64,000 nt of DNA from positions 1 through 64,000 of the forward strand of contig NZ_JAANPA010000009.1 of assembly GCF_011320075.1 (NCBI RefSeq), given 5' to 3'. Source of the DNA: Sphingosinicella sp. YJ22 (GTDB lineage Bacteria > Pseudomonadota > Alphaproteobacteria > Sphingomonadales > Sphingomonadaceae). The translations under genes and the position numbers were made by a program. Every line of letters starts with the position of its first letter. Within the stretch, counting starts at the first letter, position 1. Of this stretch, positions 10,666 through 26,700 are shown one piece after another. A model generated the notes under the pieces. The model saw nothing but the letters and a program-made list of their open reading frames with translations, searched no databases and was not told the origin of the DNA.

Positions 10666-10774
10666 GACGTCGCTGTAGCGCCGCCTGTGCTGCGGCGCAG
10701 CAGGGAATCGCGCGACACTTCCCCGCGCGTGCGGCGTTGGCTAAGCGCAAGGCGAGGGAGAGGAGGCGCGCGCC

Positions 10775-12580
10775 ATGGCCGATCAGGACAGCAAGCAAGC
10801 CGAGTCCAAGGCCGACATGCCCGGCATGCCGCCGCTGCCGAGCCTGGAAGAGATGCAGCACTGGACCTTCGTCATGGGCCGCGCGCAGCAGCTCATGCTG
10901 GAGCATGTCGCCGAGCAGATGAAGGAAGGCGCCGCGGCGGCGTTCGATCCGTCCAAGGCGGCACTGCGCTGGCCGGGCATGGAGATGTTCCCGGACCCCG
11001 CGCAGCTGGCGCAGATGCAGACCCAATTGTGGACCGAGGGGCTGGGCATCTGGCAGCGCGTGCTCGGCCAGGGCGCGGGCGGGAAGACTGAGCTCCAGGA
11101 GCAGGCCGAGAAGGACAAGCGGTTCGCCGCGCCCGAATGGGCGGAGCACCCGATGTTCGACATGATCCGCCAGTCCTACCTGCTGGTGTCGGAACGGCTG
11201 CTCGGCTCGGTCGACGCGCTTCAGGGGATCGACGACAAGCAAAAGGCCAAGCTCAAATTCCAGACCCGGCAGTTCGTCGATGCGATGGCGCCGTCCAATT
11301 TCGCGGCGACCAATCCGCTGGTCATCCAGAAGACGCTGGAGACCAAGGGCGAAAATCTGCTCAAGGGCCTCGAGCACATGCTTCGCGACATGCGCCACGG
11401 GCAGCTCACCCAGACCGACCCCGAGGCGTTCGAGGTCGGCCGCAACATCGCGATGACGCCCGGCAAGGTGGTCAAGCAGACGCCGCTCTACCAGCTCATC
11501 CAATATGAGCCGACGACCGAGAAGGTGCTCAAAGTCCCGCTGCTGATCTTCCCGCCCTGGATCAACCGCTACTACATCCTCGATCTCAATCCGAAGAAGA
11601 GCTTCATCCGCTGGGCGGTCGAGCAGGGCCTGACCGTGTTCGTCGTGTCGTGGAAATCGGCCGACGAGAGCCTCGCCGAGGTCGGGCTCGACGATTACGT
11701 CAAGGCGCAGGTCGAGGCGCTCGACGCGGTGCGCGACCTGCTCGGGGTCGAGAGCGCGCACCTCATCGGCTATTGCGTCGCCGGCACCTATCTCGCCGCG
11801 ACTCTGGCCCTGCTGGCGGCACGCGGCGAGCAGGACAAGGTCGCCAGCGCGACCTTCTTCACCGCCCAGGTCGACTTCTCCGAGGCCGGCGACCTCCAGG
11901 TGTTCATCGACGACGAGCAGATGGAGATGATCCGCCAGATCTCGGCGGAGAAGGGCTATCTCGACGGCCGCTACATGGCGGCGACCTTCAACCTGCTGCG
12001 CGGCCGCGACCTCATCTGGAGCTACGTGGTCAACAATTACCTGCTCGGCCAGGACTATACGCCGTTCGACCTGCTCCACTGGAATTCGGACACGACCAAC
12101 CTGCCGGCCAAGTGGCACGTCGCCTATCTCCAGCAGCTCTACCGCGAGAACAGGCTGGTCCAGCCCGGCGGGATCGAGGTCGACGGGGTGCCGATCAACC
12201 TCACCAAGGTGACGGTGCCGACCTATGTCCAGGCCGGGCGCGAGGACCATATCGCGCCGCCCAGGAGCGTGTGGAAGATCACCCACCACTTCAAGGGACC
12301 GCTGCGCTTCGTCCTCGCGGGCTCCGGCCATATCGCCGGTGTCGTGAACCCGCCCGAGGCCCAGAAATATCAGTATTGGATCAACGAGGATAAGGTCGAC
12401 GCCCTCGACGACTTCATCGCAGGTGCGAAGGAAGTGAAGGGCAGCTGGTGGCCCGACTGGGTCCAGTGGATTCGCGGTCTCTCCGACACCGAGGTGGCGG
12501 CCAAGGGCGCCCGGGTCCCCGGTAAGGGGAAGCTCAAGGCGATCGAGGACGCGCCGGGGAGCTACGTCAGGGCACGTTAG
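10775..12580 (+). CDS. phaC: Class I polyhydroxyalkanoate synthase
   Basis: A 601-residue PHA synthase that polymerises (R)-3-hydroxyacyl-CoA into storage granules. The N-terminal PhaC domain (about 85-260) is followed by an alpha/beta-hydrolase core. The catalytic triad is Cys334 (HLIGYCVAGTYL), Asp491 (AGREDHIAP) and His519 (GSGHIAG). The lipase-like box of class I enzymes normally reads G-x-C-x-G-G; here the fifth position is Ala. The length is typical of class I enzymes without PhaE or PhaR subunits. The start has a strong ribosome site (gagaggagg). The phasin gene follows after 87 bp, with its own promoter. Confidence 0.95.
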   Translation: MADQDSKQAESKADMPGMPPLPSLEEMQHWTFVMGRAQQLMLEHVAEQMKEGAAAAFDPSKAALRWPGMEMFPDPAQLAQMQTQLWTEGLGIWQRVLGQGAGGKTELQEQAEKDKRFAAPEWAEHPMFDMIRQSYLLVSERLLGSVDALQGIDDKQKAKLKFQTRQFVDAMAPSNFAATNPLVIQKTLETKGENLLKGLEHMLRDMRHGQLTQTDPEAFEVGRNIAMTPGKVVKQTPLYQLIQYEPTTEKVLKVPLLIFPPWINRYYILDLNPKKSFIRWAVEQGLTVFVVSWKSADESLAEVGLDDYVKAQVEALDAVRDLLGVESAHLIGYCVAGTYLAATLALLAARGEQDKVASATFFTAQVDFSEAGDLQVFIDDEQMEMIRQISAEKGYLDGRYMAATFNLLRGRDLIWSYVVNNYLLGQDYTPFDLLHWNSDTTNLPAKWHVAYLQQLYRENRLVQPGGIEVDGVPINLTKVTVPTYVQAGREDHIAPPRSVWKITHHFKGPLRFVLAGSGHIAGVVNPPEAQKYQYWINEDKVDALDDFIAGAKEVKGSWWPDWVQWIRGLSDTEVAAKGARVPGKGKLKAIEDAPGSYVRAR

Positions 12581-12667: not shown

Positions 12668-13468
12668 ATGGCTGATCAGAAAGCCACGCCCGCCAAGCGC
12701 ACCGCCGCGAAGACGAGCGCGAAGTCTGCCGCCGCTGCGGCGGCTCCCGTGAAGGCGGCCGCAACCGCCGCGCCGGTCGAGCCGGCGATCGTGAACCAGA
12801 AGCCGGACGCCAAGCCGGCCGACGTCGTGAAGCCGGAGCCGAAGGCGGCTCCGGTGGCCAAGGCCCAGCCGGTCCAGCCGGCCGCCAAGGTGGAAGAGCC
12901 GAAGATCGAAGTACCGAAGACCGAGAAGAAGGCCGAGCAGCCCAAGGCGAAGCCCGCCATGCCCGCTCCGGCCGCGACCAAGAAGATCGAGACAGGAGCC
13001 AAGAGCATGACCGAGACCATCAACAAGACCCGCGAAGCCGCCGAACAGGCCGCCGAGCAGATCCGCACCGCCATCGGCAGCGCCAACGAGCAGTCGAAGG
13101 CCGCCATGGAGAAGAGCGCCCGCGTCGCGGAAGAGCTCGCCGACCTCACCCGCGGCAACATCGAGGCGCTGGTCGCTTCGCAGAAGACCGCCGCCAAATA
13201 TGCCGAGACGCTGAGCCAGGGCGCCGCCGACTTCGGCCGCCGCAGCTTCGAGGACGCTTCGGCCGCCCTGAAGAGCTTCGCCGAGGTGAAGTCGCCGACC
13301 GACCTGTTCCGCCTGCAGAGCGAGTTCGCCCGCAGCGCGTTCGACCAGCTGGTCGCCGAGAGCGCCCGCGTGTCGGAGACGGTCGTGAAGATGACCGGCG
13401 ACGTCGTCGAGCCGATCACCAGCCGCTATTCGGTCGCGGCCGAGCGCATCAAGACGCTCGCCGCCTAA
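12668..13468 (+). CDS. Phasin family protein with a long Ala/Lys/Pro N-terminus
   Basis: A 266-residue granule-coating protein. Residues 1-113 are almost entirely Ala, Lys, Pro, Glu and Val ([20 protein letters not shown] and so on), probably disordered and DNA- or granule-contacting. The phasin domain follows at about 114-262, an amphipathic helical region ([57 protein letters not shown]). An in-frame ATG at 13007 is preceded by CAGGAG at 8-base spacing, so a 153-residue short form covering just the phasin domain may also be made. It has its own promoter and is followed by a strong terminator. Confidence 0.88.
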
Positions 13469-13484
13469 CTGGCGCCGGACAATG

Positions 13485-13507
13485 CCTGGCGCCCAGTCGG
13501 CGCCAGG
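13485..13507. repeat. Inverted repeat in phasin 3' region
   Basis: A perfect 9-bp stem (cctggcgcc pairing with ggcgccagg) with a 5-base loop lies 17 bases after the phasin stop. A third ggcgcc word precedes it at 13471, so alternative pairings are possible. It sits just upstream of the terminator and may protect the phasin mRNA end. Confidence 0.5.
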
Positions 13508-13514
13508 CGAGTTC

Positions 13515-13560
13515 GAAGGGCGGTCCTCCGGCATACGGAGTGGCCGCCCTTCTCCTTTTT
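13515..13560 (+). terminator. Strong intrinsic terminator after phasin
   Basis: A 9-bp outer stem (gaagggcgg at 13515-13523 pairing with 13544-13552), an inner 5-bp stem (ctccg with cggag) and a T-rich tail (tccttttt) to 13560. It closes the phaC-phasin transcription unit and separates it from clpS. Confidence 0.88.
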
Positions 13561-13595
13561 GGGGCGGTTCGGACGTCGGAAACCATGTCCGGGCC

Positions 13596-13625
13596 TTGCC
13601 CGTTTCCCGACCAATCGCATATTAT
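13596..13625 (+). promoter_or_regulatory. Promoter-like element of clpS
   Basis: A -35-like TTGCCC (13596-13601), an 18-bp spacer and a -10-like TATTAT (13620-13625). Transcription would start near 13632, giving a nearly leaderless mRNA for the ATG at 13636 or a short leader for the ATG at 13666. Neither start has a Shine-Dalgarno sequence, which fits this arrangement. Confidence 0.5.
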
Positions 13626-13635
13626 TGGTCAAACC

Positions 13636-13995
13636 ATGCGTACCGACGACTCTGTGATCAAAGCGATGTCCGACCAGACCGGCGGCGACGACGAAGGCGG
13701 CACCGGCCTCGGGGTCGCGACTCGGACGCGCACCCGCTCCAAGACTCCGGCGCCCTACAAGGTGCTGATGCTCAACGACGACTACACGCCGATGGAGTTC
13801 GTCGTCCACGTCCTGCAGCGCTTCTTCAAGATGGGTGTCGACGATGCCACCCGGGTGATGCTCCACGTCCACCAGCGCGGCGTCGGCGTGTGCGGCATCT
13901 TCACCTACGAGGTGGCCGAGACCAAGGTCGCTCAGGTCATCGACTTCGCCCGCGAGAACCAGCACCCGCTCCAGTGCACGCTGGAAAAAGCGTAG
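13636..13995 (+). CDS. clpS: ATP-dependent Clp protease adaptor ClpS
   Basis: ClpS binds the N-terminal domain of ClpA and delivers N-degron substrates to ClpAP in the cytoplasm. The conserved core is visible: [21 protein letters not shown] with the NDDYTPMEF substrate pocket, [28 protein letters not shown] and [10 protein letters not shown] at the C-terminus. I used ATG 13636 (119 residues); ATG 13666 gives 109 residues, also normal for the family. The open frame extends back to 13540, but that part overlaps the phasin terminator and the promoter and is not coding. No clpA is adjacent on the right; a Crp/Fnr gene converges instead. Confidence 0.93.
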
Positions 13996-14029
13996 GCCCG
14001 CTGACCGCGCGCGGCGGAAACCCGCGCGC

Positions 14030-14788
14030 CTAATTCCTCGCGGGCGGCAGCCAGCTCGTGCCGATCTTCGAGCGGTCGGTGAAGTTCGCCTCGCCCTCGA
14101 GCCGCTTTCGGTCGAGCAGTCGGAAGCTGTTGCCGCTGCGGTCGATGATGCCGTCCTCGACCAGGTTGCGGATCATGCGGTTGACGTGGACCGCGGTGAG
14201 CCCGGTGGCGTCGCCGATCTCTTCCTGGGTGAGCGGGATATGGGCGACGTCCGACGTCGGGCCGTTGACCAGCCGAAGCCGCGAGAAGATCTCGCACATC
14301 AGGGACGCGACCCGCGCCCGCGCCGAGGTTCGGCCGATCGAGGCGAGGCGGTCGGCGAGCTGCGAGCGCTCGGCGACGTTCAATGCGAAGACCAGGGCCA
14401 TCAGCCGGGGATGCTCGCTGAACAGGAGCGCCAGCCGCTCCCGGTCGAACGGACAGATCGTCGCGTCGGTCAGCGTCGTCACCGTCTCCGGAGAATCGTC
14501 GAAGGCGAGCGCGGACAGACCGACGATGTCGCCCGGCAGGTTGATGCGCATGATCTGGCGGCCGCCATTGCCGAGCAGCACGCTGCTCTGCAGCCAGCCC
14601 TTCTGGACGATGTAGAGCTCGCGCGCGGGTTCGCCCTCGCTGATCACCACGGCGTCGCGGCGGCAGTGACGCTGCTGGGCCTCGAGCCGGTCCAGCATGT
14701 CCTGCTCGGCCTTGGTCAACGCAATATAATGGCTGAGACGCTCAGCTAGACAGCTACCCCCCAACGACCCTGATCCCCCGGTACTCAT
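14030..14788 (-). CDS. Crp/Fnr-family transcriptional regulator
   Basis: A 252-residue regulator. A cyclic-nucleotide-binding beta-roll occupies about residues 25-145 (VVISEGEPARELYIVQKGWL, GDIVGLSALAF). A Crp-type helix-turn-helix follows at about 165-230 (IPLTQEEIGDATGLTAVHVN, RMIRNLVEDGIIDRSG). There are no N-terminal cysteines of the FNR iron-sulfur type, and the arginine that contacts cAMP in CRP is not evident, so the ligand is unknown. It is probably one of the many sphingomonad paralogues. It is divergent from murA, with a promoter region of about 145 bp. Confidence 0.9.
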   Translation of the reverse strand: MSTGGSGSLGGSCLAERLSHYIALTKAEQDMLDRLEAQQRHCRRDAVVISEGEPARELYIVQKGWLQSSVLLGNGGRQIMRINLPGDIVGLSALAFDDSPETVTTLTDATICPFDRERLALLFSEHPRLMALVFALNVAERSQLADRLASIGRTSARARVASLMCEIFSRLRLVNGPTSDVAHIPLTQEEIGDATGLTAVHVNRMIRNLVEDGIIDRSGNSFRLLDRKRLEGEANFTDRSKIGTSWLPPARN

Positions 14789-14933
14789 ACGCTGCGAACT
14801 AAGACACCGGTCTAGACCCAGATTAGGCGCCTGCCCTTAAACGAAATCAAGGGTTTCGTCGGTTGCGGCGGATTTTCGCTCGCCGTCGGGCCGCTTGCAT
14901 GGGGGGAGCAAAGCTTTCATAGCCCAGCGCCAA

Positions 14934-16217
14934 ATGGACAGAATCCTCATCCGCGGCGGCCGCCGCCTCAACGGCCGAATTGCCATCTCCGGCGCGAAGA
15001 ACGCGGCTTTGACGCTGATGCCGTGCGCTCTGCTCACCGACGAGATCCTCGAGCTCCGCAACCTGCCGCGGCTCGCCGACGTCGACAGCTTCATGCACCT
15101 TCTGAACCAGCTCGGCGTGTCGACGATGGTGAAGGGGACGAGCCCCGCCGAGTTCGGCCGATCGATGACCTTCAAGGCGTCGAAGATCACCTCGACCGTC
15201 GCGCCCTACGACATCGTCCGCAAGATGCGCGCGTCGATCCTGGTGCTCGGCCCGCTGCTCGCGCGCACCGGCGAGGCGACGGTGTCGCTGCCGGGCGGCT
15301 GCTCGATCGGCACGCGGCCGATCGACCTTCACCTCAAGGCGCTTCAGGCGCTCGGCGCCGAGATCGAGCTCGCCGCCGGCTATGTGAAGGCGGTGGCGCC
15401 CAAGGGCGGCCTCACCGGCGGAACGATCAGCTTCCCGGTGGTGTCGGTCGGCGCCACCGAGAATGCGCTGATGGCCGCGGTGCTCGCTAAGGGCACGACG
15501 GTGATCGAGAATGCGGCGCGCGAGCCCGAGATCACCGATCTCGCCGAATGCCTGGTTGCGATGGGCGCGAAGATCGACGGAATCCGCAGCGACACGCTCA
15601 CCATCGAGGGCGTCGAACGGCTTCACGGCGCCCGCTACTCGGTCATGGCGGACCGGATCGAGGCGGGCAGCTATGCCTGCGCGGCGGCGATCACCGGCGG
15701 CGACATCGAACTCGTCGGCGCGCGGCGGGACAGCATGGCGGCGACCCTCGCCGCGCTTCACGACGCCGGGATCCATGTCGAGGACACCGCCGACGGCCTG
15801 CGCGTCTTCACCAATGAGGAGATCAAGCCGCTGTCGCTGTCGACCGCGCCGTTCCCGGCCTTCGCCACCGACATGCAGGCGCAGTTCATGGCCATGCTGA
15901 CCATGGCCAGGGGCACCAGCCTCTTGACCGAGACGATCTTCGAGAACCGCTACATGCACGTTCCGGAATTGAACCGCATGGGCGCGGACATCGAGGTTCG
16001 CGGCCGCTCGGCGGTGGTGCGCGGAGTCGACAAGCTGGTCGGCGCGCCGGTGATGGCGACCGATCTCAGGGCCTCGATGAGCCTGATCATCGCCGGCCTC
16101 GCCGCCGAGGGCGAGACCCAGGTCAGCCGGATCTACCATCTCGACCGCGGCTATGAGCGGCTCGAGGAGAAGCTCCAGGGCATCGGCGCCGACATCGAGC
16201 GAGTCGGCGACGGCTAA
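14934..16217 (+). CDS. murA: UDP-N-acetylglucosamine 1-carboxyvinyltransferase
   Basis: MurA transfers enolpyruvate from PEP to UDP-GlcNAc, the first committed step of peptidoglycan synthesis, in the cytoplasm. From ATG 14934 it is 427 residues, the family length, starting [20 protein letters not shown]. Lys22 lies in SGAKNAALT and the catalytic Cys123 in [16 protein letters not shown], the residue attacked by fosfomycin. RAGS-type elements such as [14 protein letters not shown] and [16 protein letters not shown] are also present. An ATG at 14895 would add 13 non-conserved residues. Codon use matches the housekeeping genes. Confidence 0.96.
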
Positions 16218-16289
16218 TCGCTGGCTACGAATAGGTCGTGGTCCCGACCAGTGGTATTATTCTCTCCTCCAGACGGAGGGAGAAGCTCC

Positions 16290-16754
16290 ATGCTGTCGCC
16301 ACAAGCAGTAGCTGCATTAATCGCGTTGGGCGGCGTGATCGTCAGCGCAATTGTAAGCTTCGTCACCGCTCGTGAGAGGCTAATTGCGGAACGACGCCTA
16401 GAAATAGCTGCCCATCGCACGATCCATAAGATTCTGAGGCAGACGCGCTGGCGAATGAGAACCTTCAGCGCGATTCAGCACCACCTGCCTGGCTTCGAGG
16501 ATAACGAACTACGAAAACTGCTCGTGGCAGCCGGTGCCGTCGCATTCAGAAATGAAAAGGATCAGGAACTGTGGGGCCTGATTGACGCGAACCGGGGGGC
16601 GCTTTGGCCGGGCGATGATGGTTCAAACGGCACTCCTGGCTACTTCAGAAGAATAGCGGCCAAATTCACTCGTTGGCGGAGAGGCCCGGTCTTCCCCGGC
16701 CTCAAAGGGGTCGTGGTGGCCGCCCCGGCTCAAGCAAGGCCGCAATACGGCTAA
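16290..16754 (+). CDS. Hypothetical membrane-anchored protein, compositionally distinct
   Basis: A 154-residue protein; the start at 16290 is chosen because ggaggg lies nine bases upstream. One N-terminal membrane helix (residues 5-24, AVAALIALGGVIVSAIVSF) is followed by a charged linker (ARERLIAERRLEIAA) and a helical domain with HHLPGFEDNELRKLLVAAGA and KDQELWGLIDANR. The second half looks like a conserved module, but I cannot name it. The gene uses visibly more A/T-ending codons than murA and the amidohydrolase on either side, suggesting recent acquisition. The C-terminus ends 12 bp from the convergent amidohydrolase gene. Confidence 0.6.
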   Translation: MLSPQAVAALIALGGVIVSAIVSFVTARERLIAERRLEIAAHRTIHKILRQTRWRMRTFSAIQHHLPGFEDNELRKLLVAAGAVAFRNEKDQELWGLIDANRGALWPGDDGSNGTPGYFRRIAAKFTRWRRGPVFPGLKGVVVAAPAQARPQYG

Positions 16755-16765
16755 CGCCGTGCGGT

Positions 16766-18127
16766 TCAATCCGCATCGGGCAGAACGCGCTGGCCGCCCA
16801 TCCGGTGGACCCGGCCGTGGCGCATCACGAACTGGACATTCTCGAGCAGGCGGACGTTCTGGGTCGGGTCGCCGGCGACCGCGATGATGTCGGCGTCCTT
16901 GCCGGGCTCGATCGTGCCGACTGTGTCCTGGCGGCCGAGCAGGGTCGCGGCGCTGACCGTCGCCGAGCGGATCGCGTCCATCGGCGACATGCCGGCGCGA
17001 ACCATCAAAGCGAACTCCTCGGCGTTGCGGCCGTGCGGGCTGACTCCGCTGTCGGTGCCGAAGGCGATGTTGACGCCTTCGCGAAGCGCCCGGGCGAAGC
17101 TTCGCTCGGCGTTGCCGGCGGCCTCCTGCGCCTTTTGATATTGCGCCGCGGTGAGCGCCCCGCGCTGGCCGTCGGCGAGCGCCGCGGCGGGTGCGAGAAG
17201 GGTGGGGACGTAATAGGCCCCGGTCTGGCGGTAGAGCTGGAAAGTGCGGTCGTTGGTGAAGGTGCCGTGCTCGATCGAATTGACTCCGGCCTCGAGCGCC
17301 GCGTTGACTCCGTCGACGCCGTGGGCGTGGGCGGCGACGCGGCGACCGAACATGCGCGCCGTCTCGACGATCGAGCGCATCTCGTCGGGCATCATCTGCT
17401 GGTTGAGGCCGCCGGCGACGTTGCTGAGCACGCCTCCGGTCGCGGAGAATTTGATCACCTCGGCACCGCGCGAGATCTGCTCGCGTACCGCGCGGCGGCA
17501 GTCGTCGGCGCCGTTGCAGGTATTGATCGCGTCGGCCTCGCGGATGCGGGTGAGGTCGCGGTTGAGGCCGTTGACGTCGCCATGGCCGCCCGACACCGAA
17601 ATCCCGCGGCCCGCCGCGACGATGGTCGGCCCCTCGAAATCGCCGGCGTTGATGGCGTCGCGGAGCGAGAAGATGAGGTGCGGATCGTTGCCAAGGTCGC
17701 GCACCGTGGTGAAGCCGGCCTGGAGGGTGCTGCGGGCGTGGACGGCGGCGGTATAGGCCTCGTCCTCATAGTCGCGGGTCGCCTCCTGGAGCCGCGCCTG
17801 GAAGCGGTCGTCGAGGCCGCGCATGTGGACGTGCATGTCCATGAGGCCGGGCAGGACATAGTGGTCGCGCAGGTTCACGACGCGGGCGCCGGGGACCTCG
17901 ACGAAGCCGTCGCGGATCTCGGCGATGCGACGGCCGCGGGTGACGATGGTGACGTTGCGGCGCGGCGCCTGGCCGGGGACTGCGAGCAGCGTGCCGGCAT
18001 GGATCGCGGTGACCGGCTCGCTTTGCGGCGCCGGCGCCTGCGCCGGTTGGGCGAAAGCGGGGGATGCAAGGCCGGCGGCAACGGCCATCGGCGCCGCCGC
18101 AGCGGCCAGAAATAGCGCGATTCTCAT
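16766..18127 (-). CDS. Secreted metal-dependent amidohydrolase (imidazolonepropionase-like)
   Basis: A 453-residue protein with a Sec signal peptide (residues 1-26, ending ASPAFA). The amidohydrolase TIM-barrel has the full metal site: His99-x-His101 (MDMHVHMRG), a likely carboxylated Lys in VIKFSATGG, His in AAHAHGVDGV, His in SIEHGT and the catalytic Asp in FGTDSGVSPHG. Periplasmic relatives hydrolyse dipeptides or related amides (Xaa-Pro or Xaa-Arg types). The exact substrate is unknown. The start at 18127 follows aggggattgag; the frame is open to 18220, but the upstream part is not signal-like. It lies downstream of the GTPase-like operon on the same strand after a 183-bp gap. Confidence 0.88.
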   Translation of the reverse strand: MRIALFLAAAAAPMAVAAGLASPAFAQPAQAPAPQSEPVTAIHAGTLLAVPGQAPRRNVTIVTRGRRIAEIRDGFVEVPGARVVNLRDHYVLPGLMDMHVHMRGLDDRFQARLQEATRDYEDEAYTAAVHARSTLQAGFTTVRDLGNDPHLIFSLRDAINAGDFEGPTIVAAGRGISVSGGHGDVNGLNRDLTRIREADAINTCNGADDCRRAVREQISRGAEVIKFSATGGVLSNVAGGLNQQMMPDEMRSIVETARMFGRRVAAHAHGVDGVNAALEAGVNSIEHGTFTNDRTFQLYRQTGAYYVPTLLAPAAALADGQRGALTAAQYQKAQEAAGNAERSFARALREGVNIAFGTDSGVSPHGRNAEEFALMVRAGMSPMDAIRSATVSAATLLGRQDTVGTIEPGKDADIIAVAGDPTQNVRLLENVQFVMRHGRVHRMGGQRVLPDAD

Positions 18128-18310
18128 CTCAATCCCCTGTTGAGGCCCGGCGAATGTTCCCGAATGTTCGCAATGCCCATGGACGTCGAGCCATGCCGCG
18201 CCGAACGCGTCGGGCGGCATGATCGCGGGCTACTAGATCAGGCGAAATCCTATTTCGCAAGCGGTCCGGTCAGGGAGGAAGTGCCACCTCGAACGCGGCC
18301 CAGGCTCATC

Positions 18311-19552
18311 CTACACCGCCGGACCGCTGGCCTGCGAATAGAGAACGTAACCCATCGTAAGGAACAGCGCAGTGGCCAAAGCGATGAGGATCCCAAAAAG
18401 GATGCGCTCGCCAAGGCTCCAGGATTCGTCGGCATCGGTGGTGACCGGCTGGTCCTTCTGCGCCACCGGCTTCTGTCCGGAATGGTCAACATGGATGTTT
18501 GCCGCAGCCGTGGGAAGCGCCGAGACGCGCTGCAGAATCTCACGATGCGCCAGCTCGATGAGTTTGCCGTTGCGGGTGACTTGGTCGGCGACGTCGCGCA
18601 TCTGCCCTTTGATCGCGGCCCACTGGCGGTACTGGTCGCTTCCGTCCAACTCGGCCTGCTGCTCCTCGACTTTCGCCCGCAGGCCGGCAGCCTGATCGGC
18701 CCATTCTGCGGTCCGGCTACGCTCGGAGGCGAGCTCGCCCTCTAGCGCGCGGCAGCGTTCCGACAGCTCGACTGTCTGGGTTTTAGTCGAGCGGTTCTCA
18801 TCGATCGTCGCTGCGAAGGCCCGCGGCAGGACCTTGACGATCTCGGGTGCGGAAAGCGGGACAATGGGACTTGCGGCTTCAGGCACGCCGTCGGCCTGAC
18901 CGGCATGAGGCACAAGAACGAGGATTCGTGCATGGTTGGGCGTCGGCGGGGGAAGCAGCGTAGCACGCAGGAGCTGGTCCGCCGCCAGCTTCCAACCGTC
19001 AGTCTCGTCCTTGCTCGTCGCCAGGAAAATCGCCGTGTCCGCGGCCGGTGTCGCCACGAAAGTCCACCCGCCCAGCACGGAAGGAAGGTTCGGCGACGGC
19101 TGCAGGAAGCCGGGAAGAAAGCGCGCCCTAAATTCGTCGGCGCGCGGGTCGAGGTCATCGCCTTTACGGGCGACATCGGCGAACGTGCGTAGGGATTTCA
19201 GCAGCGGCTCGGCATAGAGAAGGTCATGGTTCAGCAACCACACGCCGACCCCCGCATGGTTTTGCCGGTCCCCGTAAACTTCGTCGACCGCATGTCCGAA
19301 GACCGCGATCCAGGTGACACTGCGCGAACGATAGTTGAACCGCGCGAATTCCACGACATAATCGCCGGGCAGAAGGCTCAGCTCGTTGCGGAACCCGACA
19401 TAATCGCTCGGGGGCACCCAGTCGGGCCGGGCGGCGGTCCCGCCGAGTACCTGCACCCGGAGCCCGCCAGAATAAGAGTGACTCTCCAGGACGAAGTCGT
19501 CCTGCGCGCGTTGCTCTGCCGCGGGCTTGTCGGCCTCCTTCAGCCGAGTCAT
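18311..19552 (-). CDS. Tail-anchored coiled-coil protein of the GTPase-like operon (component 3)
   Basis: A 413-residue protein starting at ATG 19552, which overlaps the stop of the P-loop gene as ATGA. Residues 20-220 form a predicted globular, beta-rich domain (YVGFRNELSLLPGDYVVEF, NHAGVGVWLLNHDLLYAEPL, LGGWTFVATPAADTAIFLA). About 250-330 is a coiled coil rich in Glu, Arg and Gln. A single hydrophobic segment near 382-405 (ILFGILIALATALFLTMGYV) is followed by nine residues, so it is a tail-anchored membrane protein with its bulk in the cytoplasm. No family is recognised. GAP1-type GTPase-associated proteins are a comparison worth testing. Confidence 0.75.
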   Translation of the reverse strand: MTRLKEADKPAAEQRAQDDFVLESHSYSGGLRVQVLGGTAARPDWVPPSDYVGFRNELSLLPGDYVVEFARFNYRSRSVTWIAVFGHAVDEVYGDRQNHAGVGVWLLNHDLLYAEPLLKSLRTFADVARKGDDLDPRADEFRARFLPGFLQPSPNLPSVLGGWTFVATPAADTAIFLATSKDETDGWKLAADQLLRATLLPPPTPNHARILVLVPHAGQADGVPEAASPIVPLSAPEIVKVLPRAFAATIDENRSTKTQTVELSERCRALEGELASERSRTAEWADQAAGLRAKVEEQQAELDGSDQYRQWAAIKGQMRDVADQVTRNGKLIELAHREILQRVSALPTAAANIHVDHSGQKPVAQKDQPVTTDADESWSLGERILFGILIALATALFLTMGYVLYSQASGPAV

Positions 19553-20799
19553 CGCCCGGAGACGAAGTCGAGGAGCTTGTGGAAGGCCCGGACCAGCGCG
19601 GGCTTCCGGGGCGGTTCGGGAAAGAGTGACAGCGGCACCTCGCCTGCGGCCTGCAAGGCGTTGCGATAGAGGTAGGTCCACAGGCGCGGCGGATAGCTCT
19701 TCACGACTCCCTGAAGATCAGAGTCGTTTTTCAGCTGTAACCGCCCATCCTTGTTGATGATGCCCGAGACATAGGCGTTCAACTGCCGTTGGTCAGGATC
19801 GACGTCGAGTCTCTGGAAGGCGGCCAGTGCCTGCGCGTAATTGCCGTAGCAGAAGTCGAGCAAAGCGGGCCGGTCCTCCTCGACGCTTTCGGCGCGATCG
19901 CTCTCGCGCGCCGAGTGAGCGTCCCACTTGGTGACCAACATCAGGTGCCGGTCGCTCATGCGGTGGGTGGCGCGGCTGCGATCATAGGCGTCCAGCACGT
20001 TCGAGATCGCCAGCGAGGCGCCTTCGATCTCGTGGCTGTCCTCGTTCGCGTCCTCGTTCCCATAGACGAAGCGCTGGGTGTAAGGCGTGAGGTAGAGGAA
20101 GCTGATCCCGCCTTGGTAGCTGGCGATGAAGCTTTCGACAGCGGCTTGGAGCTCGGGGGCGGTGCGCTCCAGATCGGAATAGCGCTGATCCCGCTTCTTG
20201 AGCGGGCGGTACCATTCGCCATTGCTCTCCAGAAACGCGAAACGCTGCGGCGGACGACCCGTCGGGCGCACCTCGACCGGAATGAAGAAAGGCAAGCTGA
20301 CATTGGTCTTGGGTGTCGGCTCACCGGCAATGAACGCCTGCGTGCCGACGTCGAACAGCCGCCGCGCATCTTCGTGCAGCTTGCGGCCGACCCCGTCGAC
20401 GGAACCGAGGATCGGGTCGCACAACAGGATGCCGGTTTCGAGCCGCGGCTCCGACACCAGAGTGGCGAAGAGCGACAGAAGTAGCGACGTCTTGCCGCTG
20501 AAGGCCGTGCCGAACAGCACCACCGGATGATAGCCGCCGCTCTCGAGGGCGCGGGCAAGCTGAAGACCGAGGCGCCGCCCTCCGTCACGAGCGTCATCCG
20601 GAGGAGCGGATGGGCTAGAAGGGACGAGAGAGGAGGCGCCCGCTTCCTCCGCGCCGCTATAGGAAGGAAATCGCGGCGGTGCCTCGGCCTCCTCTTCGTT
20701 CGCCGCGCTCATCCGACGCCTCGCCCTGGAGGACAGTGGAGGCGGGACGAGCGCGGGTTGCGCTTCGGCGTCATAGGGTTTCGGCGCTTCGTCCGCCAT
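19549..20799 (-). CDS. P-loop GTPase-like protein of the operon (component 2)
   Basis: A 416-residue soluble protein (start ATG 20799, sharing its A with the TGA stop of the upstream gene; GTG 20805 is an alternative). Residues 1-75 are Pro/Glu/Ser-rich and likely disordered. A Walker A motif GTAFSGKT lies at about residues 97-104 after VVLF, and VTKWDAH at about 289-295 resembles the [NT]KxD guanine-specificity motif. FAFLESNGEW (about 187-196) is in the place of the switch II region. The order and spacing suggest a TRAFAC-like GTPase, close in style to the double-GTPase families of predicted conflict systems (inference). The gene lies between two membrane-protein genes in a three-gene overlap cassette. 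Confidence 0.75.
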   Translation of the reverse strand: MADEAPKPYDAEAQPALVPPPLSSRARRRMSAANEEEAEAPPRFPSYSGAEEAGASSLVPSSPSAPPDDARDGGRRLGLQLARALESGGYHPVVLFGTAFSGKTSLLLSLFATLVSEPRLETGILLCDPILGSVDGVGRKLHEDARRLFDVGTQAFIAGEPTPKTNVSLPFFIPVEVRPTGRPPQRFAFLESNGEWYRPLKKRDQRYSDLERTAPELQAAVESFIASYQGGISFLYLTPYTQRFVYGNEDANEDSHEIEGASLAISNVLDAYDRSRATHRMSDRHLMLVTKWDAHSARESDRAESVEEDRPALLDFCYGNYAQALAAFQRLDVDPDQRQLNAYVSGIINKDGRLQLKNDSDLQGVVKSYPPRLWTYLYRNALQAAGEVPLSLFPEPPRKPALVRAFHKLLDFVSGR

Positions 20800-21824
20800 C
20801 ACCACGCTCCCGCCAGCTTGCTCTCGGTCGCCCTACGGCGGCCGCCATGCGCGGCGACCAGCATGAAGCAGTGGACCATGAAATAGTCGAAGCTAAAGGC
20901 GATCAGCAGGTAGACCCAGGTCACCGGTTGATCGATCCGCTCGAGGAAGAGCGCGGGCAATTTGAAGGCGTTGCCGAGACTCTGCACCTCGGAGATGTGC
21001 AACCCGTCGGGCACATCCCGCACCTCCGCGTGGCGCGACAGACGCTGGCGAAGGGCGCGATAGCGCGAATCCTGCGCTTCGAATTGCGGGAGCACCCGCG
21101 GCAGCATGAGCGGGCTGTACCCGGCCGACAACTCGGACCGCAGATTGCCGAGCGTCTCCTCCGCGCCATTGGCCTCCGCAATGGCGTTCCCAAGATCCGG
21201 ATTGTTCCAGGCGGCCCGGCTGAGCAGCGTGTCGATGCGCTCCCGGTAGTCGGCGATGACCTCCTCGTTGCGTTCGCAATTCCGTCCGGTGTTGCTGAGC
21301 GGAGTGAAGCCGGGGAGGAGGCGCTGCAGCTCGGCGATTCGGCGGCGCGCTTCCTGGCCCTGGCCGCAGTTGAGCGGGTTGCGGATCTCGCTGAAAAAGG
21401 CCTCGCTGGCCGTCCGGACCTGGTTGCCGCGCTCAGTGGCGCCGCTGCTCTCCAGTTCCTGTTCGGCGACGCCCCTCAATCGCGCGAACCGCCCCTGCGC
21501 CTCGCCGGCGGCGTCAGTCAGGATACGACCGCCCTCCAGATAGAGCATCAGGCTGTTGTAGACGCCGGCGGCGCTGACCACGAGGAGGGCGGAGAACAGG
21601 ACCGGGTGCTTCCTAATCCCGCCATTGTTACCGACGACTTGGGCGAGATACCAAGCGAAGATCGCGACCACCGCGGCCCCCACCATCGCCAGGAAAATCC
21701 TGGAGCGCAGGAACAGATTGAAGTATCCGTAGGCGATGATCGCGAAGAAGATCAGCGAGAAGACGAACAGCAGGACCTGCATCGACCGGTATCGATTGAC
21801 CTGCTCGGCTTTGGAGCCCCCCAT
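20799..21824 (-). CDS. Four-helix membrane protein with periplasmic domain (component 1)
   Basis: A 341-residue protein. Membrane helices lie at about 15-38, 41-64, 72-95 and 297-325. Positive residues flank the cytoplasmic sides (VNRYRS, GGIRKH, GGRRRATESK), so residues 98-295 should be periplasmic. That domain is helical and contains two cysteines (PLNCGQGQ and GRNCERNEE), able to form a disulfide. It looks like a sensor or receptor placed across the inner membrane, but no family is recognised. It is the first gene of the operon; its stop overlaps the P-loop gene start (TGATG). A ribosome site aagggga precedes the ATG. Confidence 0.75.
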   Translation of the reverse strand: MGGSKAEQVNRYRSMQVLLFVFSLIFFAIIAYGYFNLFLRSRIFLAMVGAAVVAIFAWYLAQVVGNNGGIRKHPVLFSALLVVSAAGVYNSLMLYLEGGRILTDAAGEAQGRFARLRGVAEQELESSGATERGNQVRTASEAFFSEIRNPLNCGQGQEARRRIAELQRLLPGFTPLSNTGRNCERNEEVIADYRERIDTLLSRAAWNNPDLGNAIAEANGAEETLGNLRSELSAGYSPLMLPRVLPQFEAQDSRYRALRQRLSRHAEVRDVPDGLHISEVQSLGNAFKLPALFLERIDQPVTWVYLLIAFSFDYFMVHCFMLVAAHGGRRRATESKLAGAW

Positions 21825-21979
21825 GGCCTTTCCCCTTGGCCTTAACGATTCGGCAAGGAAGGCTAGAACCGCCTATTCATTGAGGAAATGAGGGTCCGAT
21901 CCGAAACGGACCGGTTCTCGTCCGCTATGGAGCGAGCTTTGCCGGCGGTCGACGCCGGCCCGAACGATGATTGACCATT

Positions 21980-22411
21980 TCAGCCGGTCAGCGCTCGGTA
22001 GAAGCGGTAGCTGCTTCGTTCGTAGCCGAGGCGCTCGTAGAAGGCGTGGGCGTCGGCTCGGCGAAGGTTGCTGGTGACCTCGATCAGGCCGCAGCCCGCC
22101 GCGCGCAGGTGGCGCTCCGCGGCCTCCACGAGCAGCCGTCCCAACCCTTGGCCGCGCGCCTCCTCCGCGACGACCAGCATCGTGATCCGGCCGACCGGGC
22201 GCGGACGGTGAAGCACGGGCGTTATACCCAGGGTGATGCAGCCGACGATCCGGTCGGTCTCGGCGATCAGGGTCGGGCGGCCCTGCTCGGTAAGATCGTG
22301 GAGCCGTGCGCCGAGCCCGTCCTCGTCGACCTCGTAGCCGAGGGCGCGGATCAGGGTCACCAGGGTCGGAATGTCGCGCGTCTCCGCCTCGCGGATGCTC
22401 GGCCCGGTCAA
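21980..22411 (-). CDS. GNAT-family N-acetyltransferase
   Basis: A 143-residue acetyltransferase. The acetyl-CoA binding motif A is clear (MLVVAEEARGQGLGRLLVEA, with the R/Q-x-x-G-x-G/A pattern RGQGLG), followed by motif B with AHAFYERLGYERSSYRFYRA. The substrate is unknown; such small proteins acetylate amines, peptides or antibiotics. Its ATG overlaps the stop of the DUF445 gene (ATGA), so the two are co-translated. A 155-bp gap separates it from the GTPase-like operon start. Confidence 0.88.
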   Translation of the reverse strand: MTGPSIREAETRDIPTLVTLIRALGYEVDEDGLGARLHDLTEQGRPTLIAETDRIVGCITLGITPVLHRPRPVGRITMLVVAEEARGQGLGRLLVEAAERHLRAAGCGLIEVTSNLRRADAHAFYERLGYERSSYRFYRALTG

Positions 22412-23658
22412 AAGGCGACCTCGATCGTGTGGATGAGGAGGCCCACCAGGCCTCCGACGACGGTGCCGTTGATCCGGATATATTGGAGGTCCTTGCCGAC
22501 CGCGGATTCGAGGCGGGCGGTGATCGTGCCGGCGTCCCAGCGCTTGACCGTGTCGGAGACGAGCCGGACGATGCCGTCGCCATAATCGGCGGCGACTCCG
22601 ACGATCGCCCGCCGGGCGAAGCGGTTGATGCCCTGGCGGAAGCGGTTGTTATGCTCCAGCGCCTCGCCGAGCTCGCGCAGCATGGTTCCGACCTCGCCGG
22701 CGAGCGCGCCTTCGGGATCGCGGACCCGACGGATGAGGCCGGTGCGCATCCGCTCCCACACGCCCAGCCACCATTGCTCGACCGCGGGATTGTCGAGCAG
22801 GCCCGACTTGAGGTCCATGACGCGCTGGCGCATTTCCGGATCGCTGCGCAGCTTCTCGGCGAGATCGCGCAGTTGCTCCTCGATCTTCTTGCGCAGCGGA
22901 TGGGCGGGATCGGCGGCGAGCTCGGTCAGCAGCCGGTCGATGCCGTCGATGATCTTGTCGGCGACGGTGGAGTCGAGACCGGTCCAGCGCAGGATCGAGC
23001 CGGAGCGGTCGTGGACCATCTGGCGGATCAGGTCCTCGTTGTTGTTGACGAGGCGCGCGATGGCGATGACCAGCTCGTCGAGCAGGGGGACGTGGCGGTC
23101 CTCGGCGATCGCGGCGTCGAGCGCCTCGCCGATCAGCGGCGCGGCGTCGAAGCTGCGCAGCCGGTCGGCGAGGACTCCCTTCACCATGGTGCCGAAGCGT
23201 TCGGGATCGAGCGCTTCCAGCATATTCTCGAGCATTCGAGCGGCGCCACGCCACAGCCGGCCCTGCTGCGGCGGCTCGGCGAGGAAGCGGCCCGCGGCGC
23301 CGGCGACGTCGACCCGTTGCATTCGGCGGGCGACGACCGACGGCGTGAGGAAATTGTCGCGCAGGAACAAGGCGAGCGTGTCGCCGATGCGGTCCTTGTT
23401 GCGCGGGATGATCGCGGTGTGCGGGATCGGCAGGCCGAGCGGGTGGCGGAACAGGGCGGTCACCGCGAACCAGTCGGCGATTCCGCCGACCATCGCCGCT
23501 TCCGCGAACGCCTTGACGAAGCCCCAGGCGGGATGCGCGCGCTCGAGGCCCGAAACGGCGATGAACACGGCCGCCATCGCCGCCAGCATCGCCGTCGCGA
23601 CGACCCGCATTCGGCGGCCGCTGTCAGGCGGAGGGTAGCGGACGGGCAGCGGGATCAT
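22408..23658 (-). CDS. DUF445 family inner-membrane protein
   Basis: A 416-residue protein of the DUF445 (YjiN-like) family. A hydrophobic helix lies at about 19-37, then FVKAFAEAAMVGGIADWFAV with the family GGIADWFAVTALFRHPLG signature and IPHTAIIPRNKDRIG. The long central region is helical and charged. The C-terminus has a second membrane segment (GTVVGGLVGLLIHTIEVAF). The molecular role of the family is unknown. It is translationally coupled to the GNAT gene downstream. It lies 67 bp after the RND permease stop, where a terminator-like hairpin is found. Confidence 0.88.
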   Translation of the reverse strand: MIPLPVRYPPPDSGRRMRVVATAMLAAMAAVFIAVSGLERAHPAWGFVKAFAEAAMVGGIADWFAVTALFRHPLGLPIPHTAIIPRNKDRIGDTLALFLRDNFLTPSVVARRMQRVDVAGAAGRFLAEPPQQGRLWRGAARMLENMLEALDPERFGTMVKGVLADRLRSFDAAPLIGEALDAAIAEDRHVPLLDELVIAIARLVNNNEDLIRQMVHDRSGSILRWTGLDSTVADKIIDGIDRLLTELAADPAHPLRKKIEEQLRDLAEKLRSDPEMRQRVMDLKSGLLDNPAVEQWWLGVWERMRTGLIRRVRDPEGALAGEVGTMLRELGEALEHNNRFRQGINRFARRAIVGVAADYGDGIVRLVSDTVKRWDAGTITARLESAVGKDLQYIRINGTVVGGLVGLLIHTIEVAF

Positions 23659-23692
23659 GGCCCATCAATAGACGGCGGCGATTTGGGTTCAA

Positions 23693-23717
23693 CCGGGGCG
23701 CAGATCGGGCGCCCCGG
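23693..23717 (-). terminator. Hairpin after the RND permease gene
   Basis: A perfect 9-bp stem (ccggggcgc at 23693-23701 pairing with 23709-23717) and a 7-base loop lie just past the permease stop on the minus strand. Only two T follow in that direction, so termination strength is uncertain. Confidence 0.5.
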
Positions 23718-23725
23718 CCGGACCC

Positions 23726-26700
23726 TCATTCGGCGGGCTGCTGACCGTGCTCGCGCTCCGGGGCCGGCGCATCCTTGCCGCCATTGGTGAGCCAGCGCTT
23801 GAGCTTCGGCCCGAGCCGCTCCTCGATGCCGAGCGCCAGGCTGAACGTGCCGGGCACCAGCACCAGGGTCAGCACCGTCGACAGGATGAGGCCGCCCATC
23901 ACGACGATGCCCATCGGCGCGCGCCAGGCGGCGTCGCCGCTGAGCGCCAGCGCGGTCGGCAGCATGCCGGCCGACATCGCGACGGTGGTCATCACGATCG
24001 GCTGGGCGCGCTTGTGGCCGGCGTCCATGATCGCGGTGAACTTGTCGACGCCCTTGTCCATCTCCTCGAGCGCGAAGTCGATCAGAAGAATCGAGTTCTT
24101 CGCGACGATGCCGAGCAGCATCAGCAGGCCGATATAGACCGGCAGCGAGATGGCGTGGCCGGTGATGATCAGCGCGATGAGACCGCCGAGCGGCGCGAGG
24201 AACAGCGAGCCCAGGTTCACCAGCGGCGGCAGCACGCGCTTGTAGAGCAGCACCAGCACCGCCAGCACGAGGAATATGCCCGCGATCACCGCAAGGAAGA
24301 AGTTCGAGATCATCTCCGCCTGCCAGCGGTTCATGCCCGTCACGACCTCGCGGACGCCGATCGGCAGGTTCTGCATCACCGGCAGGGCGCGGATCTTCTC
24401 ATAGACCGGGCCGCTGACCTGGCCGGGGGCGAGGTCGGCGCCGATGTTCACTCGGCGGATCTGGTTGATCCGGTCGATGCGCGTCGGGCCGGCGCCGAAG
24501 CCGATGTCGGCGACCAGACGAAGCGGCACCGAGCCGCCATTGGAGGTCTGGACCGGCAGGTTCTGGATGTTCGCCAGCTTGGCGCGGGCATCTTCCTCGA
24601 ACGCCACCCGGATCGGGATTTGGCGGTCGGACAGCGAGAAGCGGGCGCTGTTCTGGTCGATGTCGCCGAGGGTCGCGATCCGGATCGCGTTGCTGAGCGC
24701 GGCGGTGGTCACGCCGAGCTCGGCAGCGAGGTCGGCGCGCGGACGGATGGTGATTTCCGGGCGCTGAAGGTCGCCGGCGACTCGCGGAGCGACCAGCTCG
24801 GGGATCGTCGCCATTTCCTGGACCAGCTGGTTCGAAATCCGGTTCAGAAGCACCGGATCGCTCGATCCGAGCGTGATGGTGAGATCGCGCATGCCGCCGA
24901 ATTGCGAGCGGAACGAGACGCGGGCGTCGGGGATCGCCGCGAGCTGCGGAGCGACCGAACGCTCGAACTCGGTGCTGGTCATCTCGCGCTCCTCGCGGAG
25001 CTGGGCGACCACCGATCCGCTGCCGACGCGGGTGCGGGAGAAGACGGCCTCGACCTCGGGCCGCGCCTTGAGGATCTCCTCGGTGCGGCGGACGACGGCG
25101 GCGGTCTGCTCGAGCGTGCTGCCCGGAGCCATCTCGATCGAGGCGGCGCTGCGGTCGAGGTTGACCGTCGGCTGGAAGGTCTGCGGGATCATCATGAAGC
25201 CGGCCACGGTCGCGGCGAGCGAGAGGACGCCGCCGACGACGGTCGTCCAGCGGTGCTTCAGAGTCCAGCGCAGGAGGCCCATGTAGCGGTCCATCAGCCA
25301 GCCTTCGCCGTGCGACTGCTTGCCGTGAGGCTTGAGCAGATAGGCGGCCATCATGGGCGTTATGAGTCGTGCCACAGCGAGGCTGATCAGCACCGCCACG
25401 ACCACGGTGAAGCCGAAATTCTTGAAATACTGGCCGGCGACGCCGGGCATGAAGCCCACGGGCATGAACACCGCGACGATCGAGAAAGTGGTCGCGACGA
25501 CGGCGAGGCCGATCTCGTCGGCGGCCTCGATCGATGCCTGATAGGCGCTCTTGCCCATGCGCATATGGCGGACGATGTTCTCGATCTCCACGATCGCGTC
25601 GTCGACCAGCACGCCGGCGACCAGGCCGAGCGCCATCAGAGTCATCGTGTTGAGCGAGAAGCCCATCAACGAGATGAACCAGAAGGTCGGGATCGCCGAG
25701 AGCGGGATGGCGACGGCAGAGATCGCCGTCGCGCGCCAGTCGCGAAGGAACAGGAACACGACGAGCACCGCCAGCGCGGCGCCCTCGATCAGCGATTCCA
25801 TCGCGGAGTGATATTGCGCGCGGGTATATTCGATGTCGCTGGTCAGCTCGACGAAGCGGACCTCGGGATTGCGCTGCTCGAGCTCGCGCAGCTTGGCGAC
25901 GGCGCCGTCATAGACGCTGAGGTCGGATTCGCCGCGGGCGCGCTTGATCTCGAACGACAGGACCTGCTGGCCGTCGCGAGTCGCGAAGGCGCGCTGCTCG
26001 GCATAGAGGTCGCGTACGGTGGCGATGTCGGCGAGCTTGACCGTGCGGCCGCCGCCGATCGCGATCTGGGTCTGGCCGAGGCGGTAGGCGTCGGTGGCGT
26101 TGCCGAGGACCCGCAGCGACTGCTCGGAGCCGGCGATCTCGGCACGCCCGCCGGCCGCGTTCATGTTGGTCTGGCGAAGCTGTGCGTTCACCTGGCTGGC
26201 AGTGATCCCGTAGGCCTGCATCCGCGCGGGATCGAGCATGACCCGGATCTCGCGGTTGACTCCGCCGGTGCGCTCGACTCCGGCAAGGCCGGGAACCGAC
26301 AAAAGCTCCTGGCTGACCGTGTTGTCGACATACCAGCTCAGCCGCTCGAGCGACATGTTGGTGGTAAGCGCGGTGAAGCTCGCCAGTCCCTGATCGCTGG
26401 TGTCGACCCGGAAGACCTGGGGCTCGATGATGCCATCGGGCAGATCGCTGCGGATCTGCTGGATCGCGTTGCGGACGTCATCGAGCGCACGATCGACCTG
26501 GGTGCCGATGGCGAGCTGGACGACCGTCTGCGAATTGCCCTCGCTGACCGTCGAGGTGATCTCCTCGATGCCGGTGATCGAGCGGACCGCCGCCTCGACG
26601 CGGGTGGTGATCTGGTTCTCGAGCTCGGCCGGAGCGGCACCCGGCTGCGAGATCGAGACGATCACGATGGGGAAGTCGATGTCGGGCTCGTTCTGGACCT

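Follow-up and report, generated by a model that had tools for sequence, protein, structure and literature searches.

A rare three-gene cassette for a four-helix membrane protein, a DO-GTPase2-like GTPase and a tail-anchored protein in Sphingosinicella sp. YJ22

The window considered here is a 64,000-nt stretch of Sphingosinicella sp. YJ22 DNA (contig NZ_JAANPA010000009.1). Between positions 18311 and 21824 it carries three genes, all on the minus strand and all with intact frames, which code for a protein with four transmembrane (TM) segments, a P-loop GTPase and a tail-anchored coiled-coil protein (components 1, 2 and 3, respectively). The genes overlap, by 1 base (TGATG) between components 1 and 2 and by 4 bases (ATGA) between components 2 and 3. 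The genes and their main features are the following:

20799-21824, minus strand: component 1, 341 aa; three N-terminal TM helices, a predicted periplasmic region of ~200 aa, a fourth TM helix and a short basic tail
20925-21536, minus strand: predicted periplasmic region of component 1, residues 97-300, with an NPxNCGxG motif (C153) and a second cysteine, C183
19549-20799, minus strand: component 2, a 416-aa P-loop GTPase, DO-GTPase2-like, with a poorly conserved N-terminus (~75 aa)
20488-20511, minus strand: P-loop (G1) GTAFSGKT of component 2, residues 97-104
20212-20232, minus strand: G3/Walker-B-like motif LESNGEW of component 2, residues 190-196; ESNGEW is invariant in 4/4 homologues
19921-19932, minus strand: G4 motif TKWD of component 2, residues 290-293
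18311-19552, minus strand: component 3, 413 aa; N-terminal globular domain, coiled coil and C-terminal membrane anchor
18848-19495, minus strand: N-terminal alpha/beta domain of component 3, about residues 20-235, with ARPxWxP, YGxRxN and GxGVWL-type motifs
18347-18403, minus strand: C-terminal TM anchor of component 3, residues 384-402 (hydropathy)

The TM segments of component 1, as given by hydropathy after merging of overlapping calls, lie at about residues 17-35, 43-61, 75-93 and 306-324, and four were likewise called in each of the four component 1 proteins that we found (see below). The stretch from TM3 to TM4 contains both cysteines, C153 and C183, neither of which varies among the four homologues; the positive-inside rule predicts that this region faces the periplasm. 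No TM segment was called in component 2. The C-terminal one of component 3 is present in 4/4 proteins, the Methylococcales copy having one extra internal segment, and four arginines of component 3 (R42, R71, R96 and R209) are invariant. A preliminary description of the locus had proposed the overlapping start and stop codons, the four helices and two-cysteine periplasmic domain of component 1, the GTAFSGKT and TKWD motifs of component 2 and the globular domain, coiled coil and single C-terminal anchor of component 3; all of these were found again.

That description had been unable to assign the genes to a named system, and the strong HMM match to a well-known system that would speak against this was sought and not found. 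None of the three window proteins reached the cut-off of a Pfam or NCBIfam model, and whatever components 1 and 3 matched in Pfam, NCBIfam and PADLOC either stayed under the cut-off or reflected composition (coiled coil). There were no matches of the window proteins to PHROGs (E up to 0.1), and the solved structures returned by sequence (best E 0.016) seem to be chance similarities only, for instance through a P-loop or a coiled coil. Promoter and terminator scans of the operon strand yielded no more than expected by chance.

The nearest named relatives had been guessed to be the DO-GTPases, and here the profiles agree. DO-GTPase systems were described by Kaur et al. (2020; PMC7159879) and are represented in Pfam by DO-GTPase1 (PF19975), DO-GTPase2 (PF19993) and GAP1-N1 (PF20012); in the part of that article available to us, the double-GTPase systems are predicted from genomes, without a worked-out mechanism. 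PF19993 matched three of the four triplet GTPases: that of Tahibacter passed the Pfam cut-off of 27 (28.0 bits, E 2.1e-6), while those of G169 (21.8 bits, E 1.6e-4) and of the window (12.1 bits, E 0.15) stayed under it; for the Methylococcales protein PF19993 was not among the matches listed (E up to 1). The motifs characteristic of DO-GTPase2 (P-loop, G3 glutamate and G4 T(K)xD) are present in 4/4, with Glu at the usual G3 Asp; TKWD and the P-loop residues G97, S101, G102 and K103 are invariant. LESNGEW aligns with the DLPGEW of a canonical DO-GTPase2, and G1, G3 with its GEW, and G4 all align with a canonical DO-GTPase2 whose gene adjoins one DO-GTPase1 and one GAP1-N1 gene. We infer that E195 is the glutamate meant in the available part of Kaur et al. 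(PMC7159879). When A3 was compared with one canonical DO-GTPase2 by hhalign, the P-loop alone was recovered. Judged from its motifs and profile matches, component 2 is a distant relative of DO-GTPase2. Since its G3 reads Glu-Ser-Asn-Gly in place of Asp-x-x-Gly, GTP specificity and hydrolysis could differ.

A few other candidates were set aside. PF19993 matches in G1038 and G1004 were judged spurious; the ORFs resemble Era and an ABC ATPase (neighbourhoods inspected by eye), and the G1038 match was marked as over the cut-off once in-frame neighbours were added. Five weak A7 matches (E 0.002-0.009) were attributed to P-loop chance similarity.

The triplet was found in the same order in four genomes, namely the Sphingosinicella sp. 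YJ22 window, another genus of its family, a Methylococcales MAG and Tahibacter caeni. The homologues are 25-43% identical to the window proteins and the flanking genes differ from one genome to the next. Because the same gene order recurs in four genomes the cassette is, on this comparative evidence, more than a chance arrangement. The preliminary description, for which absence of the triplet elsewhere would have been a counter-argument, is thus upheld in treating membrane protein, GTPase and tail-anchored protein as one conserved unit.

It was also right about the accessory nature of the cassette, which is rare: it was found once among 26 genomes of the genus and twice among 199 of the family. 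In four of the 25 genus genomes that lack it, the genes that flank it are found near one another. The GC content of the triplet is 64.7% against 68.8% for the remaining window, none of 242 sampled segments of 3514 bp being at or below the triplet value; the compositionally unusual ORF that had been placed beside it was not identified. The triplet was probably acquired horizontally. The longest exact match between its flanks is 8 bases, and therefore no insertion mechanism was found. Searches of plasmids and phages with component 2 (tblastn), of plasmids with the Tahibacter GTPase and with component 3 (tblastn), and of viral contigs with components 2 and 3 gave nothing, or nothing confirmed in the last case. 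The next downstream ORF is on the opposite strand in 3/4 copies; in the window it is a same-strand amidohydrolase, which is also present without the triplet in G933. Where Pfam gives the neighbours a name, these are ordinary genes in three of the four genomes. A location in a defence island had been suggested as well and is not supported, because only one of the four copies has a defence-like neighbour (TerD); none was seen beside the other three in the stretches read, and no defence neighbour recurs across the four.

The cassette shares with DO-GTPase systems a P-loop GTPase with a glutamate at Walker-B/G3 (GEW), membrane-linked partners, a partner gene directly downstream and a patchy spread. 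It departs from them in having a single GTPase, with a G3 Glu-Ser-Asn-Gly replacing Asp-Leu-Pro-Gly, a fixed four-TM partner upstream and a tail-anchored coiled-coil partner downstream, while neither a GAP1 nor an effector gene was found in the unit. No GAP1 model was among the 25 of 28 families listed for the four component 3 proteins (E up to 10), and hhalign of component 3 against GAP1-N1 (three sequences) was negative with these thin profiles. GASH and FNIII gave no match for components 1 and 3 by profile or for the neighbours named by Pfam, the other neighbours having been inspected by eye. All four copies consist of the same three genes, and none of the operons includes a variable effector. 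That the cassette is a double-GTPase system as published is not supported, GAP1 not being found by profile and an effector gene being absent from the unit. The cassette appears to be related to the predicted double-GTPase systems yet distinct from them, and the portions available to us of the literature on DO-GTPase, GTPase-associated protein 1, longin, TagF/TssM and antiphage double-GTPase contain no description of the triplet.

Another relative is the pentapeptide-GTPase locus of G791 (L008). Its GTPase domain is homologous to that of component 2 over 284 columns (hhalign 7e-18) and has LESPGE and LLTKFD motifs, and a four-TM protein is encoded within the same 20-kb stretch. Unlike the cassette, the G791 GTPase has a pentapeptide N-terminus and a CHAT protein nearby, and no component 3 was recognised by eye; the four-TM protein, considered as a relative of component 1, shows no detectable homology to it. 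YcjX (DUF463, PF04317) is also a P-loop GTPase, and its G3 motif, of the PGEW type, resembles that of component 2; PF04317 was not among the 15 families matched by the four GTPases (E up to 10).

The explanation that we favour, with somewhat better than even confidence and on the basis of four triplets, is that of a self-contained sensor-GTPase-scaffold switch at the inner membrane, probably horizontally acquired. Component 1 would sit in the inner membrane and is a probable sensor because it would present a disulfide-capable domain to the periplasm. Component 2 would be soluble, its nucleotide state probably following component 1. Component 3 would be held in that membrane as well by its C-terminal anchor, leaving the conserved domain and the coiled coil on the cytosolic side, where it probably binds the GTPase as a regulator, an output scaffold or both. 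We infer that the three proteins form a direct complex, that signalling runs in this direction and that GTP is hydrolysed. As to the overall role, our guess is that the switch most likely senses, at the membrane, a disturbed envelope or an invader. The unit has no gene of known effector type.

Two other roles both seem unlikely to us. The cassette could be a reduced double-GTPase system directed against phage, with component 3 in the place of GAP1 and with component 1, a small multi-TM protein, acting itself as a membrane-perturbing effector. This would agree with the DO-GTPase2 kinship of component 2, with the patchy distribution and the one adjoining TerD, with the fusion of the distant G791 homologue to pentapeptide repeats ~2 kb upstream of a large CHAT-domain protein, and with the match of the Tahibacter GTPase to PADLOC mad8 (1.2e-4, 19.7 bits, residues 55-206; 0.0035 for G169 and 0.051 for the window GTPase). 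However, mad8 apart, PADLOC returned only weak matches, of the kind that P-loops and coiled coils produce, and none that was convincing for a second component of any system (for components 1 and 3 the window copy was scanned). The plasmid, phage and viral collections yielded nothing for components 2 and 3, and three of the four copies lack a defence-like neighbour in the stretches read. A variable effector would also not be expected to carry a conserved region such as the ~200 aa between TM3 and TM4, nor to be conserved along with the other two proteins, as component 1 is. The conservation of this cysteine-bearing region in all four copies, together with the ordinary neighbours in three genomes, would suit a membrane module, rare by chance, that serves in envelope stress or in housekeeping (envelope homeostasis or the transport of lipids or proteins) and not in conflict. 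A comparative genomics study of phage-shock systems points the same way in its available part, where DO-GTPases are predicted to act in membrane stress (PMC11237479). Absence from 25 of 26 genus genomes, and rarity in general, fit a housekeeping role poorly.

A further proposal overlaps the favoured switch and specifies component 3, which would contain a longin-type (TagF/FLCN/NPRL-like) domain and act as a GAP or exchange factor for the GTPase. The cassette would then be a membrane switch of the longin-GTPase type in minimal bacterial form, or would be related to TagF-TssM of type VI secretion; we give this proposal a low probability. Besides the four invariant arginines it draws on the full-length model of component 3, whose VIA ranks 1-14 are FLCN/FNIP, SMCR8-C9orf72, GATOR1 and SEA complexes, the Lst4 longin domain and TagF, whereas ranks 15-20 are unrelated (Z 4.7-5.3). 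The Z values were 8.2 for 6v4u (rmsd 2.7, 118 aligned), 8.1 for 8dhb (rmsd 3.7, 122 aligned), 7.5 for 4zy8 (rmsd 4.3, 126 aligned) and 6.7 for the TagF 9t0n (rmsd 4.6, 153 aligned), but the model is poor (mean pLDDT 50.5) and a Z of 7-8 is usual in VIA for models without a clear match. The aligned parts of these chains would be longin domains, as is the case for 4zy8, and PA0076 (2qnu) is a TagF. Foldseek also placed a TagF at rank 1 (E 0.016), but nothing reached E 0.001 and the TagF rmsds were 10.8-15.3. The longin ranking was not reproduced with the domain-only model (pLDDT 44.9), for which Lst4 and GATOR1 chains came out at Z 2.2-2.6 only and nothing at Z >= 5, the best being JetC chains (3.8). 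That component 3 is a GAP1 or TagF homologue by sequence was rejected, hhalign showing no relation to TagF_N or GAP1-N1, with thin profiles (3/4 GAP1-N1 loci and 8/10 TagF loci) that give weak evidence of absence. In type VI secretion, TssL and TssM combine a GTPase-like domain, a TM/periplasmic part and a tail-anchored part at the inner membrane. The cassette resembles TagF/TssM/TssL in this layout and in the weak fold similarity of component 3 to TagF; profiles of TagF_N and TssM gave no match for component 1 (E up to 1) or component 2 (E up to 10) and were not among the 25 of 28 families listed for component 3. The more specific idea of a switch in which regulation of a DO-GTPase2-like GTPase falls to a tail-anchored protein of longin fold, with a periplasmic sensor in control, as a prokaryotic counterpart of the eukaryotic Rag-GTPase/longin-regulator membrane complexes, is quite improbable on present evidence; it would link DO-GTPase systems with TagF through a common GTPase-longin principle.

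As a minimal three-gene version in which sensor, switch and anchor are constant and no variable effector occurs, the sensor-GTPase-scaffold cassette would be a tractable model of the coupling between GTPases of the double-GTPase kind and membranes. If component 3 is longin-like, then longin-GTPase coupling at membranes would extend to bacterial accessory cassettes.

The triplet consists of three minus-strand genes that overlap by one base and then by four bases:
20799-21824, minus strand, component 1 (341 aa)
19549-20799, minus strand, component 2, the P-loop GTPase (416 aa)
18311-19552, minus strand, component 3 (413 aa)
Merged hydropathy calls gave four transmembrane (TM) segments for component 1, none for component 2 and a single C-terminal one for component 3; judging from the charges, the stretch that separates TM3 from TM4 in component 1 would be periplasmic.

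With component 2 as tblastn query, two of 199 family genomes were positive, counting the genome under study, the second copy being in G169, a member of another genus; among 385 genomes of the class, the own copy was the sole match. A pattern scan of 84,980 species genomes, based on an alignment of two sequences, confirmed two further copies, both gammaproteobacterial, in a Methylococcales MAG and in Tahibacter caeni; since it was built on two short peptide patterns, more distant copies will probably have escaped it. The gene content of the window suggests an alphaproteobacterial genome. In all four genomes the genes follow the order 1-2-3 on a single strand with short overlaps or gaps, and identity to the window proteins is 28-43% for component 1, 34-40% for component 2 (the tblastn match in G169 had 43%) and 25% for component 3. 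The triplet is thus a conserved unit, and no description of it was found in the open-licence literature searched (DO-GTPase, antiphage double-GTPase, longin and TagF topics).

Component 2 carries P-loop residues (G97, S101, G102 and K103) and ESNGEW and TKWD motifs that are invariant in the four GTPases. Three of the four match the Pfam family DO-GTPase2, Tahibacter with 28.0 bits and G169 with 21.8 bits (cut-off 27); the window protein gave only E = 0.15. When aligned to the canonical DO-GTPase2 of locus L040, ESNGEW faces DLPGEW, the usual G3 aspartate being a glutamate in the triplet GTPases. The glutamate typical of DO-GTPases seems, from this alignment, to be kept; we infer that E195 is the one named as typical by Kaur et al. 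(PMC7159879). Counting against DO-GTPase2 kinship, hhalign of the triplet GTPase family with the single L040 protein recovered the P-loop alone. L040 comes from a genome of the same order; at 225-2651 its DO-GTPase2 gene is followed in tandem by one for DO-GTPase1 and by the beginning of one for GAP1-N1. A fuller homologue is a pentapeptide-fused GTPase of genome G791 (hhalign 7e-18, 284 columns). This protein (locus L008, G791:C2:976001-996000, at 9493-10923) lies about 2 kb upstream, with other ORFs in between, of a gene whose 1290-aa product ends in a CHAT domain (12953-16825; Pfam 3.5e-9), and a 4-TM protein is encoded in the same stretch (18937-20001); this is possibly an undescribed GTPase-CHAT conflict locus.

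Profile searches assigned no family to component 1 or component 3. Between TM3 and TM4, component 1 has the motif NPxNCGxG and, 30 residues further on, another cysteine; both cysteines are invariant in the four copies, and a disulfide-bonded sensor domain can reasonably be predicted there. Component 3 has 33 invariant positions, 24 of which fall in the N-terminal 110 residues (ARPxW, D, G, TW, D, G-R-N, GxGVWL), followed by a coiled coil and the anchor; the G169 protein (L003, 10948-12516) has some 100 extra residues past the anchor, which would be periplasmic. In a VIA search with the full-length AlphaFold model, the best 14 matches (Z 5.5-8.2) were FLCN/FNIP, SMCR8-C9orf72, GATOR1 and SEA chains, the Lst4 longin domain and three TagF entries, TagF crystal structures thus ranking alongside eukaryotic GTPase-regulator chains. 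The aligned domain we take to be the longin domain in the latter, and PA0076 to be a TagF. A longin-type fold is a lead rather than a result, because the model, built from four sequences, is weak (pLDDT 50.5), best Z values of 7-8 are typical for models without a clear match, the best Foldseek match (TagF) had an E of 0.016 with a large rmsd, none reaching 0.001, and a domain-only model, itself worse (pLDDT 44.9), did not reproduce the ranking (best, JetC, Z 3.8).

Within the genus, a profile of the four GTPases matched a single genome out of 26; in a sample of the phylum it matched two of 398 (the own genome and the more distant G791 homologue). The triplet is therefore accessory in this genus, all 26 genomes of which have the DUF445 gene. 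At the sites of four of the other 25 genomes, murA and DUF445 are at most about 2 kb apart, with no triplet gene between them; the interval holds a GNAT gene in two, the amidohydrolase also present in the window in one and neither in one. Comparison of window 14895-23658 with these sites (L036-L039) outlines a small variable site between murA and DUF445, occupied by GNAT, by the amidohydrolase, by the triplet or by neither. The GC content of the triplet is low: out of 242 windows of equal length that were sampled, none was at or below it. Rarity in the genus, absence from the relatives' sites and low GC make acquisition by transfer likely, although the triplet may instead have been lost from the other members.

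Flanking genes, named with Pfam where given below and otherwise judged by eye in the ORF lists read (window 16000-25000, L003 over 20 kb, L004 6000-16000 and locus L005 over 14 kb), differ between the four copies. The window copy has an amidohydrolase downstream and GNAT and DUF445 genes upstream, with an EPSP-synthase-family gene, read as murA, farther out; the Tahibacter copy adjoins a LysR regulator and glutamine synthetase, and that of G169 an aldehyde dehydrogenase and an ABC transporter segment. The Methylococcales copy has a glycosyl hydrolase on one side and TerD (1.9e-84) on the other, the latter directly downstream on the opposite strand with two genes (285 and 166 aa; L004 12682-14883) whose Pfam matches are at chance level only.

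The triplet is best read as a membrane switch in which component 1 would take periplasmic input, the nucleotide state of component 2 would serve as memory and component 3, anchored by its tail, would act as regulator or output platform; that the three form a complex, which way the signal runs and what role it has are what we infer here. It may be a defence system, as the DO-GTPase kinship, the patchy spread, the TerD neighbour of one copy and a weak match to the PADLOC model mad8 (1.2e-4 for Tahibacter, 0.051 for the window) would suggest, but neighbours are ordinary in three genomes and searches of plasmid, phage and viral sets with components 2 and 3 found no copies. It may equally be an envelope-stress system. 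The preliminary description had named GTPase-centred conflict systems as the nearest concept; the DO-GTPase2 kinship agrees with this, whereas the profile search found no GAP1 and the unit has no effector gene, so that it is not a double-GTPase system by the published definition. Neither was a GASH/FNIII partner seen among the triplet's own proteins and the few neighbours scanned. We propose, nevertheless, that the triplet may work in a similar way to double-GTPase systems, at the membrane.
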